Origin: an uncultured Halobacteriovorax sp.
Lineage (GTDB): Bacteria; Bdellovibrionota; Bacteriovoracia; Bacteriovoracales; Bacteriovoracaceae
Assembly (NCBI GenBank): GCA_913061265.1
Contig: CAJXVS010000009.1
Coordinates: forward strand, 1 to 64,000
Direction: 5' to 3'
Length of the DNA: 64,000 bases
Numbering within the stretch: the stretch's first letter is position 1; the number at the start of each line of letters is the position of its first letter. The notes below the pieces were generated by a model that worked only from the letters and a program-made list of their open reading frames with translations, ran no database searches and was not told the DNA's origin. Positions 46,390-51,309 of this stretch are shown in pieces. A program made the position numbers and the translations under genes.

Positions 46390-47541
46390 TCAGACTGTAT
46401 CCGGCTGTAAGACTAAAGTAAAGCTATCGACTTTGGCGAGCATTTCTTCGAACTCACTAAGGGCAGTGCTTAAAAGAGTCACTCCTCCCCCAGCCCCATA
46501 GGAAAAAGTATTCTTAGAAGTAGAAACTTCAGCTGTCCTAATATTGATTGAGGCCTTTGTTTCATCTCTTGAAAAGAAAAGAGTCGATCCGCAATAGGCC
46601 CCCCTCACTCTTTTTTCGAGCTCGCTTAAGATCTTCATCGTCTTAATCTTTGGGGCACCGGTTATAGAGCCCCCAGGAAAAAGGGCCTTGATGGTTTGAT
46701 CAAGCTCGATCTTCTTTTCACTCTTAAGTTGTATATGACTGTATTGATGAAGAAGCCCTGGAACTTTTAAAGGGACTCTTAACTTAAGAACTTTAGCGGC
46801 GGCTTCGATCTTATTTAAGTCGTTTCTTAAAAGATCAGTGATCATAAAAAGCTCGGCCTTGTCTTTTTCACTATCAGACATTTTCTTCCAAGCCCCCTCT
46901 TCATCTTTGATTGTCCCTTTAATGGGTTTTGTCTCTAAGGTATTTCCTCTTTGATTAAAAAGGCATTCGGGGGAGTTGCTTAGAATACCCCATTCAAGAC
47001 TTGGGCAGTAAGTGGCGTGGGCGAACTCGCCTTGATGAGCGGGGTTTCTAAATAAATTAGAAGCAAGGTTTAAAAAGTCTCCTACGTATTTATATTCAAA
47101 AGGAAAAGTTAAGTTGAACTGATAACTATCACCCCTCTCTAGAGATTCATAACCCTTATCAAAAGCATTTTTATACTCTTCAAAACTTGGCGCCGCTGTC
47201 TGCTCTAGTGAAAGACGATGATACCTTAAGGGAACCGTAAGGCTTTCAGAGTCATATGTTATGTCTAAGGCGAGCCAGGCATCTTCAGGAATTAGATCAA
47301 TGCCTTTATTAAAAAGATGCCCCGCCTCATAAGAGAGGGTTAAGATGCGATGAGGTTGCTCATCACTTTTGAAGATTGACTCTAAGAACTCTTCTGTGGA
47401 GATCAAAGACTTCTCACCGCTAATTAAGTCCAGCTTCGAGTTCTTAAAATATAAGAAGGCCTTTGAAGGATTTGAATAAAGCCTCCACTTGTTACCTATA
47501 GGAATAATTGAATAAGGAAGGTTATTGGTTTCCAGGTGCAT
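46390..47541 (-). CDS. pabB: Aminodeoxychorismate synthase component I
   Basis: About 383 residues. The motif PIKGT with Lys marks PabB rather than TrpE, which carries PIAGT. FPGGSITGAPK and SINIRTAEVS complete the chorismate-binding pattern. It makes 4-amino-4-deoxychorismate for folate with PabA. I chose the ATG at 47541, which lies 20 bases inside the dnaB end, over an upstream in-frame Met. Last gene of the ribosomal-dnaB chain. Confidence 0.88.
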   Translation of the reverse strand: MHLETNNLPYSIIPIGNKWRLYSNPSKAFLYFKNSKLDLISGEKSLISTEEFLESIFKSDEQPHRILTLSYEAGHLFNKGIDLIPEDAWLALDITYDSESLTVPLRYHRLSLEQTAAPSFEEYKNAFDKGYESLERGDSYQFNLTFPFEYKYVGDFLNLASNLFRNPAHQGEFAHATYCPSLEWGILSNSPECLFNQRGNTLETKPIKGTIKDEEGAWKKMSDSEKDKAELFMITDLLRNDLNKIEAAAKVLKLRVPLKVPGLLHQYSHIQLKSEKKIELDQTIKALFPGGSITGAPKIKTMKILSELEKRVRGAYCGSTLFFSRDETKASINIRTAEVSTSKNTFSYGAGGGVTLLSTALSEFEEMLAKVDSFTLVLQPDTV

Positions 47542-48850
47542 AGGATAAGTTTTCAAAAGAAGTATGAGCACCAACCCAAGCTAGCTTCGCTGTTCCGATC
47601 TCACCACCACGGTTCTTACCGAGGATGATCTCTGCTACACCTGGCTCTTTTGTGTCTTCGTTATAAACTTCATCTCTATAGATGAACATAATAACATCGG
47701 CATCCTGCTCGATGGCACCAGACTCCCGAAGGTCAGCATTATTTGGTCTTTTATTAGGTCTACTTTCAACCTGACGGTTAAGCTGAGAGAGGGCCAAGAC
47801 AGGACACTCAAGTTCCTTGGCCATTGATTTAAGACCCCTTGAGATCTCTGAAATCTGCTGCTCTCTACTTGGGTTCTTTGTATGTGAGTTCATCAGTTGA
47901 AGGTAATCAATGATGATCATTCCAAGACCCGATTCAGATCTAATCTTTCGGCATTGTGATTGAATATCCAGAATCGTCGAAGAACCTGAATCATTAATAA
48001 AGATAGGAAGGGCCGAGAGGTCATTAACGGCAGTCCCAATATTTCGAAGATCTGTATCTAAAAAGTCTTTCGTTCTAATCCTCTTACTATCGACTTTCGC
48101 TTGCTGAGAGAGAAGTCTCATTGATAGTTCGTTTGAAACCATTTCCAGTGAAAAGATAGCAATAGGAAGCTTTGTCATAGCGCACGAGTTAAGGGCGATA
48201 TTCAAGGCAAAGGCCGTCTTTCCCATGGCAGGACGAGCGGCTAAAACAATAAGCTGCCCAGGCTGCATTCCCAGAAGCATCTTATCAACTTCGTTATAAC
48301 CAGTAGGAAGACCAGAGATCTCTCCAGGCTTTCTTGAAGTGTCTTCTAACTCTTTTAAGTTTTCGATAAGGCAGGACTTTAGTCCAACCATCTTTCCGGC
48401 CTTAGCATCAGTTGTAAGCCCAAAGAACTTACTCTCTACTTCTTCTAGGAATTCGTCTGCGTTTCCTTTGAAGTTTAATCCAAGAGAGGCCACGTCTTGA
48501 GAAGTTCTTACGATATTTCTAAGGGAGGACTTATCTCTAACTGTCTTGGCGTAATGATAGATATTAGCGGCAGAAGCTAGCTCTTCAGCAAGATCAGCGA
48601 TGGCGGACTGACCACCAACTTCATCTAACTTTCCTGTACTTGTTAGCTTTGAACATACGGTCACATAATCAATAGGCTGATTGCTAATGAAAAGGTCATT
48701 CATATTATCAAAGATCACGCCGTACTGAGGGTGATAAAAATCTTCACGAGCCAATTTTAAGTCTGAGATTTGTTCAAAGGTATTAGAGTCAACCATCAGA
48801 CAACCAAGTAATGATCTCTCGGCAAGTAAGTCGTGAGGTAATTCGTTCAT
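47522..48850 (-). CDS. dnaB: Replicative DNA helicase DnaB
   Basis: 442 residues: N-terminal helical domain, linker and RecA-like ATPase with Walker A ARPAMGKTAFALNIA (~residue 205), the DnaB patterns IFSLEMVSNELSMRLL and GLGMIIIDYLQLM, and SREQQISEISRGLK. Length and motifs are typical. The terminator at 48872 lies between rplI and this gene, so it needs read-through or its own promoter. Confidence 0.96.
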   Translation of the reverse strand: MNELPHDLLAERSLLGCLMVDSNTFEQISDLKLAREDFYHPQYGVIFDNMNDLFISNQPIDYVTVCSKLTSTGKLDEVGGQSAIADLAEELASAANIYHYAKTVRDKSSLRNIVRTSQDVASLGLNFKGNADEFLEEVESKFFGLTTDAKAGKMVGLKSCLIENLKELEDTSRKPGEISGLPTGYNEVDKMLLGMQPGQLIVLAARPAMGKTAFALNIALNSCAMTKLPIAIFSLEMVSNELSMRLLSQQAKVDSKRIRTKDFLDTDLRNIGTAVNDLSALPIFINDSGSSTILDIQSQCRKIRSESGLGMIIIDYLQLMNSHTKNPSREQQISEISRGLKSMAKELECPVLALSQLNRQVESRPNKRPNNADLRESGAIEQDADVIMFIYRDEVYNEDTKEPGVAEIILGKNRGGEIGTAKLAWVGAHTSFENLSYAPGNQ

Positions 48851-48910: not shown

Positions 48911-49525
48911 TTAAGCTTCTGTTTCTTCACCATCAGCTGCAGCTTCTGTAGCTTCACCGTCAGTCGCTTCCGCTTCTTCACCAGTTTCACCGGCTTCTAA
49001 AGCAGCAGCTTTTGCTTCTTTCCTTTTAACAGCAGCACGCTCAGCAGCTTCCTGCTTTGCTTTTAATTCTTCTGCTTGCTTAGGATCGATCTCAACCTTA
49101 ACTTTGAATTCTGCAATAACTCCGCTAAAAATCTTTGCATGTACTTCGAATTCACCAAGAGTCTTGATTGGAGTAACAAAAGAGATCACTCTTTTTTCGA
49201 TGTCATGACCAAGTTCCATTAATGCTTTAGAAACTTCAGTTGAAGTAACAGTACCAAATAGGTTCCCATTACCACCGACTTTCTTAATCATTGTTAGAAC
49301 AAGACCGTCTACAGCTTTCTTAATCGCCATAGCTGCATCTTTTTCTTCAGCAACTTTTTTAGCTAGAGCTTTCTTTTGATGCTCAGCTTGTTTCTTACTT
49401 CCAGCATCAGCAATAACTGCTTTTCTGTTTGGAATAAGAAAATTTCGTCCAAAACCTGGACTTACATTAACAATTTCCCCAACACTACCAAGTGCAGGTA
49501 CTTTTTCTGTTAAGATAACTTTCAT
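48911..49525 (-). CDS. rplI: Ribosomal protein bL9 with extended C-terminus
   Basis: 204 residues, against ~148 usual. The N-terminal bL9 pattern KVPALGSVGEIVNVSPGFGR and NFLIPNRKA is complete, followed by the connecting helix and C-domain to ~residue 150. A ~50-residue Ala/Glu/Thr-rich tail follows (ELKAKQEAAERAAVKRKEAK), probably disordered. The gene overlaps the DUF2232 stop by four bases. Confidence 0.93.
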   Translation of the reverse strand: MKVILTEKVPALGSVGEIVNVSPGFGRNFLIPNRKAVIADAGSKKQAEHQKKALAKKVAEEKDAAMAIKKAVDGLVLTMIKKVGGNGNLFGTVTSTEVSKALMELGHDIEKRVISFVTPIKTLGEFEVHAKIFSGVIAEFKVKVEIDPKQAEELKAKQEAAERAAVKRKEAKAAALEAGETGEEAEATDGEATEAAADGEETEA

Positions 49526-50580
49526 TGGATATCTCCTTCATTATTTTTGTTTTTCTTGAAAAACTTTCTAAAATTAACCCATGTATCAAATAGGCCGACT
49601 AAAACGACAATTCTCCATGCGGACCATAGAGTTATAACAACAAGCATGCTTCGAAAGAATCCCACAATGTTTACCCATTTGAGAAAATCTATCAAAACAC
49701 CAAAACCTTGAAAGAAGTAAAAGATTCCTAAGCAATAAAGAACATTGCTTCCTATTAACGCTGCAGTCTCTCCGCCTAAGTACTCTTTTCCGAGAAGAAG
49801 AGCTAAGGAGAAAATAACAACATAGATAATCGGATATGGAACTTCGAACTTTAAAAGATTCTTCATACTATAGGGATAGGTATGCTCCGACTTCCAGAGG
49901 ATTCCATTTCTAAGTACGATCATCAACGACAAGTAGAGTCCTAAGAAGACGCTGATAAAGATTCCTGCAGGGATCCATTCTACGATTCCTTTGGCAATTT
50001 CATCTGGCTTATTAAGCATATCTTGTAATTGAAGAGCTTTTGTTCCTCCACCCTCTAACGCTTCTTTAACTCCAGGGTTTTCCTTTTTCGCAATTTCAAA
50101 GGTCTGGATTAAAGAATTTTCTATTTGCTTCACAATCGGTGTTTCTGAAGTGGTGATATACACCCCTAAGAGCACCGAGGATAAAGCAACAACAATCATA
50201 CCCGTTGTTAATAACCCTTTCACAGGATGAACCTTTCTAAGAATAACCTCACCGATTAACACGGCATTGATATAAAAGAGAAGGTATCCAACGACTGAGG
50301 CCATTGAGAGCTGAGCTGTTGCTTCAGCAGCACCAAGTTTCGCAAGAAACCAAAGAGCAACTGAACAAGCTATTGTTAGAAGGACAGTTTTTGATCTCCC
50401 AAATAAAAGAATTCCAAATATAAGTGGAACGGGAGTCAGCATGGCAAGAGGTAAGAACTTATAAAGGGCAATCGACAACACTCCGAGGAAAGCGAGCTTT
50501 CCAAACGAAAAAGAACTTGCTGAAGAGCGGAGCTCTTTCACATTAGTTCTTGAATCTTGTGAGCATTCTTGATTTTCCAT
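49522..50580 (-). CDS. DUF2232 family membrane protein
   Basis: 352 residues with about eight membrane segments and the DUF2232/YybS pattern (LTPVPLIFGILLFGRSKTVL near residue 45, and EVPYPIIYVVIFSLALLLG near 235). Its position between S6/S18 and L9 is known for this family. Function unknown; proposed roles in membrane or ribosome-linked transport are unsupported here. Confidence 0.78.
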   Translation of the reverse strand: MENQECSQDSRTNVKELRSSASSFSFGKLAFLGVLSIALYKFLPLAMLTPVPLIFGILLFGRSKTVLLTIACSVALWFLAKLGAAEATAQLSMASVVGYLLFYINAVLIGEVILRKVHPVKGLLTTGMIVVALSSVLLGVYITTSETPIVKQIENSLIQTFEIAKKENPGVKEALEGGGTKALQLQDMLNKPDEIAKGIVEWIPAGIFISVFLGLYLSLMIVLRNGILWKSEHTYPYSMKNLLKFEVPYPIIYVVIFSLALLLGKEYLGGETAALIGSNVLYCLGIFYFFQGFGVLIDFLKWVNIVGFFRSMLVVITLWSAWRIVVLVGLFDTWVNFRKFFKKNKNNEGDIQ

Positions 50581-50594
50581 TACTGTTCAAATCC

Positions 50595-51227
50595 CTAGCT
50601 ATTGCGCCCTTGAGCGGTTCTTCCTGATAAATGACTTAGTAGACCAATATTACGAGCTTGCTTGATAGCTTTATCTGCAAACCTGTGATGCTTTCTACTA
50701 ATACCTGAAACTCTTGCTGGAGAAATCTTTCCAAACTCGTTTACAAGCCAAGCGTATGTGAGTGGATCTTTCCAGTCAGCCTTGATCTTTTGAGCAGCAA
50801 ACCAACATGATTTTCTACGTGAAAAACGACGACGGTCTTTACCACCATCAGCATCTTCATCAGAATCAGTTACAGAACCAGCATACTTCTTAGAAAAAGG
50901 AGTCTTTACGTTCTTAACGATCTCACCAACTTTATCATCATCTTCTTCAACAGCGATAACTAGGTGTTTCATGATCCCTTCGTTAATTCTAAAACGACGG
51001 GCAAGCTCAACGTTGTTCGCGTTGTTAGCTTTGTACATAAAATAAAGATAGTGGCCTTGCTCGACACCAGTACTAGTTGGTTGAGCGAAAGTGAGTGTTC
51101 CCCAATCGTCCTCGATGAAAACTTCTCCATCGTGTTCTTTGACAACTGAAAGAACCATCTCTTTTACTTTTGCGACTTCGTCATCAGACAACTCCGCCTT
51201 TGTCACTAAAGACAATTCGTAAATCAT
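50595..51227 (-). CDS. Ribosomal protein bS6-bS18 fusion
   Basis: 210 residues in one continuous frame. Residues 1-~115 are bS6: MIYELSLVTK, then QGHYLYFMYKAN and RRFRINEGIMKHLVIAVE. After an acidic, Gly-rich linker (~117-130, TDSDEDADGGKD), residues ~131-203 are bS18: RRRFSRRKSCWF, ADWKDPL, FGKISPARVSGISRKH and KAIKQARNIGLL. The separate proteins are ~100-131 and ~75 residues and form a heterodimer on the 30S platform. AGGAGG precedes the ATG at 51227. No in-frame Met begins the S18 part, so separate initiation is unlikely. Confidence 0.9.
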   Translation of the reverse strand: MIYELSLVTKAELSDDEVAKVKEMVLSVVKEHDGEVFIEDDWGTLTFAQPTSTGVEQGHYLYFMYKANNANNVELARRFRINEGIMKHLVIAVEEDDDKVGEIVKNVKTPFSKKYAGSVTDSDEDADGGKDRRRFSRRKSCWFAAQKIKADWKDPLTYAWLVNEFGKISPARVSGISRKHHRFADKAIKQARNIGLLSHLSGRTAQGRNS

Positions 51228-51309
51228 GTTACCTCCTGGGCAAAATGGCCCCCTACTCAAATGGTGGGAGCGAGTTAACGTTCATAAATGTGGCTGGAAT
51301 GTAGCAAAC

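Follow-up and report, generated by a model that had tools for sequence, protein, structure and literature searches.

Genes for ribosomal proteins S6 and S18 form a single reading frame in nearly all Bacteriovoracaceae examined

Introduction

As a rule, ribosomal proteins S6 and S18 are synthesised as separate chains, which then form a pair in the small subunit. Must they be two proteins at all? The Bacteriovoracaceae, a family that includes well-known predators, raise this question in an unusually direct form. In the window considered here, a 64,000-nucleotide stretch of DNA from an uncultured Halobacteriovorax sp., a first-pass annotation had read a 210-codon frame as bS6 followed by bS18. 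Is this frame an artefact, a precursor that is cut into two ribosomal proteins, or the source of a single chain that does the work of both? The answer bears on more than gene structure, as S6 and S18 of E. coli act as a heterodimer in assembly as well as in regulation (PMC4647458).

Results

One frame carries complete bS6 and bS18 domains

Both halves of the frame (Table 1) proved to be complete Pfam domains, in the order proposed by the first-pass annotation. The S6 domain matches PF01250 over model positions 2-89 of 90 (E=3e-17, 62.9 bits, curated cut-off 27), and the S18 domain matches PF01084 over positions 2-52 of 52 (E=2e-14, 54.2 bits, curated cut-off 21). Against the NCBIfam equivalog models, the S18 half scores 42.8 bits with TIGR00165, above the cut-off of 38.75. 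The S6 half scores 38.5 bits with TIGR00166, slightly below the cut-off of 42.9, and S6 may therefore look missing in annotation, which calls for caution. The E. coli S18 residues in contact with C719/C720, AIK60RAR63 (PMC4647458), are retained in the fusion as AIKQAR. AlphaFold models of two sequences reached a mean pLDDT of 35 and were discarded.

The locus order S6-S18-DUF2232-L9-dnaB likewise stands: genes for DUF2232, L9 and DnaB, identified by Pfam, follow downstream on the same strand. L9 itself bears a Glu/Ala-rich C-terminal extension (204 aa, against about 148 matched), and long L9 frames are found in other Bacteriovoracaceae genomes as well.

Table 1. Features of the fused locus, in window coordinates.
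Feature	Position	Strand	Basis
Fused rpsF-rpsR gene, bS6-bS18 protein, 210 aa	50595..51227	-	One frame, ATG at 51227, strong Shine-Dalgarno AGGAGG upstream
bS6 domain, residues 3-91	50955..51221	-	Pfam PF01250
Acidic/Gly linker, residues 111-131 (FSKKYAGSVTDSDEDADGGKD), without start codon	50835..50897	-	Translation and codon scan; limits set against the tails of unfused S6 and S18
bS18 domain, residues 147-197, incomplete set of zinc ligands (SCWFAA, GISRKHH)	50637..50789	-	Pfam PF01084; motif table
Leader: CTC (51272-51274), hairpin (51248-51271), Shine-Dalgarno AGGAGG (51232-51237)	51232..51274	-	Sequence; covariation; CTC:GAG pairing
DUF2232 membrane protein, next gene	49522..50580	-	PF09991
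Ribosomal protein bL9, long acidic C-terminal extension	48911..49525	-	PF01281 and PF03948
Replicative helicase DnaB	47522..48850	-	PF03796 and PF00772

The fusion runs through the family

Could two frames have been joined by an error of sequencing or assembly? Many of the assemblies are drafts split over numerous contigs, and the Halobacteriovorax relative that carries the same fusion (88% identical, linker longer by one codon; L033, genome G007) is itself a metagenome-assembled genome. Yet an intact fused frame of 203-252 aa is present in 106 of the 114 Bacteriovoracaceae genomes with S18, some of them assembled into one or two contigs (G107, G002). In 51 distinct fused sequences, linkers were measured between the conserved Pro that follows S6 and the first Cys of S18; they come in 15 lengths within 23-38 residues, and every one keeps the frame. 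This refutes a frame-joining error, to which we assign next to no probability.

Two further genomes seem to be fused and interrupted by contig ends. In one (G064) the start of the contig cuts the gene and the S6 tail is still in frame with S18; in the other (G008) S18 opens one contig and S6 runs off the edge of a second, the picture that a fused gene split during assembly would give. Five genomes are unfused, with an S18 that has its own start (G001, G019, G025, G063 and G028). Finally, G026 (L071, contig C61) carries a single in-frame TAA within its linker, with no ATG, GTG or TTG from there to the S18 core; the TAA is either an error of assembly or a stop codon that is read through.

The survey covered the Bacteriovoracaceae in two draws and 23 other families, all within one phylum; a class-level draw of genomes yielded Bacteriovoracaceae only. 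Across those 23 families, S18 lies in frames of just 74-162 aa in all 106 genomes with S18, which indicates separate genes there. The search of Bdellovibrionota genomes for such fusions, called for at the outset, thus found them family-wide in the Bacteriovoracaceae, with separate genes in the other families.

No second S18 gene accompanies the fusion

A free rpsR elsewhere in the genome had been named as an observation that would undo the proposal. In the source genome (12 contigs, 99.75% complete) the single S18 match and the single S6 match both fall within the fused frame. Profile searches of both draws found no second S18 gene in any of the 114 Bacteriovoracaceae genomes with S18, each having at most one match. 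S6 is single in 46 of the 47 family genomes with S6. The exception, G048, is a draft that has, besides the fusion, an additional free S6 of another type (L127; G048:C102, 238-786, minus strand) on a 4.4-kb contig, possibly a contamination.

The linker and the start of S18

Is S18 also initiated on its own within the linker, so that the fusion is a read-through form of two overlapping products? A codon scan of the source linker finds no ATG, GTG or TTG, which bears out and extends the earlier remark that it lacks an in-frame Met. The same stretch, from the end of S6 to the S18 core, has no start codon in 26 of the 51 distinct fused sequences, the source gene and 25 others; in this half or so of the set S18 alone cannot initiate there with standard starts, and for these sequences the idea is refuted. 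It draws what support it has from the remaining 25, in which some ATG, GTG or TTG lies within the linker or close to it; in four of these sequences a Shine-Dalgarno-like 4-mer precedes it. The positions of these codons are unconserved, however, and judged by sequence a separate initiation of S18 is unlikely in these genes too. Taken as an account of the fusion, internal initiation strikes us as highly improbable.

A more serious alternative is a polyprotein: one chain is made, and a later cut in the linker releases S6 and S18 as free proteins, after the manner of eukaryotic ubiquitin-ribosomal protein fusions. Speaking for it are an acidic and variable linker, probably disordered, that begins and ends with what were once free tails, and the in-frame stop of G026. 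Against this, the variable middle of the linker displays no single conserved cleavage motif, and linker length is held within its narrow range, below that of the combined S6 and S18 tails of unfused genes, although both points are compatible with cleavage. On balance we consider a cut polyprotein unlikely, and an uncleaved single chain the better reading of these linkers.

Fused S18 has lost zinc ligands

Zinc-binding S18 has been described (PMC11791143). Every unfused S18 of the family that we examined carries CX2C and CX2H. The source protein departs from this zinc-binding (C+) pattern, CX2C ... CX2H, at the motifs given in Table 1. The second cysteine of the motif is absent from every fused S18 for which the region was in hand, and from G026; the third is also lost in most fused S18s.

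Two observations on S18 stand apart from this pattern. The genome G190, from a different family of the phylum, has two S18 genes, at C6:40983-41126 and C2:33809-33955, possibly zinc and no-zinc paralogues. We also considered a loss of RimI, the S18 N-acetylase, together with the fusion. One of 13 family genomes has a match above the TIGR01575 cut-off, a distribution that is uninformative because several unfused families (f6 and f11, for example) have none above it either.

A probable single origin

When did the two genes become one? In a tree of L9 and DnaB (46 taxa, 584 columns), unfused G001 and the unfused group of G019, G025 and G063 branch outside all fused genomes, and these outside relatives have adjacent S6 and S18 genes. 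As most unfused members thus lie beyond the fused clade, a single joining of neighbouring genes near the base of the family is the probable source of the fusion, which nearly all members examined have kept. G026 groups weakly with the fused genome G039. Unfused G028 is placed among the fused genomes, though the support for this position is weak (76.7/86). A fast constrained search had earlier rejected the single-fusion topology with G028 outside, whereas a full constrained search did not (delta lnL 26.5, AU p 0.07). The S18 of G028 has an intact zinc motif (CWFCAKK, GVCRPHH), which argues for G028 being ancestrally unfused.

The unfused genes also suggest how the linker was assembled. In G025 and G063, S6 ends NYKSPF.. 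and S18 opens with an acidic head that ends DVDKDRRMFSRKKSC. By its sequence, the fused linker looks like the old C-terminal tail of S6 and the acidic N-terminal tail of S18, joined and shortened. Loss of the S6 stop and of the S18 start between the adjacent genes probably gave rise to the fusion.

A leader that resembles the rpsF autoregulatory element

In E. coli the Shine-Dalgarno sequence of the rpsF leader lies in a stem, H1, accompanied by a second stem, H2, and repression requires S6 together with S18 (PMC4647458). This autoregulatory RNA, rpsF_leader, is known from E. coli and B. subtilis (PMC4647458, PMC10931766). Do the fused genes have an equivalent? We compared leaders across the family (L073-L109). 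The leaders of 35 fused genes share one layout: a CTCG, from which few depart, is followed by a hairpin whose sequence varies, and that in turn by the Shine-Dalgarno sequence. Directly before the S6 start, CTC can pair with the GAG of the Shine-Dalgarno sequence in 22 of 22 aligned leaders, G-U pairs counted. The arms of the second hairpin covary: 233 of 245 pairs are kept in the 35 leaders, against 188 +/- 3.8 in shuffles in which the 3' regions were exchanged between genomes, and none of 5000 shuffles did as well. Arms were chosen by best pairing, in the shuffles as in the real leaders. RNAalifold, run on a MAFFT alignment of the leaders, recovered the CTC:GAG stem only and missed the hairpin because its arms were misaligned. 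As to the CCG bulge of rpsF_leader, a CC follows the hairpin in many genomes, not in all, and an Rfam search of the leader gave no match. As the layout is the same in kind as that of the E. coli rpsF leader, repression by the fused protein is, by analogy, a reasonable expectation.

Discussion

S6 and S18 of this lineage are encoded as one frame, with no second copy, with the frame conserved through a variable linker, and across nearly an entire family. The explanation that accounts best for these observations is a genuine single-chain bS6-bS18 that is the sole source of both proteins and most likely functions as one unit on the 30S platform; we put its probability at roughly 0.8. We infer that the fused protein escapes cleavage, joins the ribosome as a single chain and recognises the leader of its gene. 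On the 30S platform this chain would most likely replace the usual heterodimer, its acidic linker serving as a flexible tether between bS6 and bS18. By attaching to the hairpin beside the Shine-Dalgarno sequence, it would probably also repress translation of its own mRNA. To the wider proposal, that throughout the family an obligatory, uncleaved S6-S18 resides in working ribosomes, has lost the S18 metal site and is its own translational repressor, we incline with some reserve. The TAA of G026, and unfused G028 placed weakly inside the fused clade, suggest that the fusion may not be indispensable everywhere.

What would such a protein teach us? A single-chain lineage is a natural experiment on whether S6 and S18 ever need to act apart. 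It bears on a fixed S6:S18 stoichiometry and on modifications that need free ends, namely those by RimK on the S6 C-terminus and the N-terminal acetylation of S18. For systematics, the fusion is a shared derived character of nearly all Bacteriovoracaceae. The first-pass annotation knew of no described bS6-bS18 fusion, and we too found no earlier description of a natural one in the open-access literature that we searched, where absence is no proof of novelty.

How does this protein compare with known systems? Like the bS6:bS18 heterodimer (rpsF, rpsR), whose two chains pair on the 16S central domain, it has the same two domains, gene neighbourhood and RNA-contacting S18 residues, and presumably the same place on the platform. 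Unlike the heterodimer, it is one covalent chain, with no free S6 C-terminus or S18 N-terminus and with an incomplete S18 zinc motif. Its leader resembles rpsF_leader in lying directly before the S6 start and in combining a stem able to occlude the Shine-Dalgarno sequence with a second hairpin; it differs in its 5' strand, CTCG, in a CC that is not universal, in its lack of an Rfam match, and in a regulator that would be one chain. In the human mitoribosome, bS18m and bS6m are bridged by a [2Fe-2S] cluster (PMC11791143). There, as here, S6 and S18 are joined more tightly than by contact alone, but by a metal bridge between two chains, whereas the Bacteriovoracaceae have a peptide link and their cysteines are lost rather than used. 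RPS27A and UBA52, finally, are similar in that a ribosomal protein is encoded within a longer chain; their partner, ubiquitin, is non-ribosomal and is cut off, while in the Bacteriovoracaceae both halves are ribosomal.
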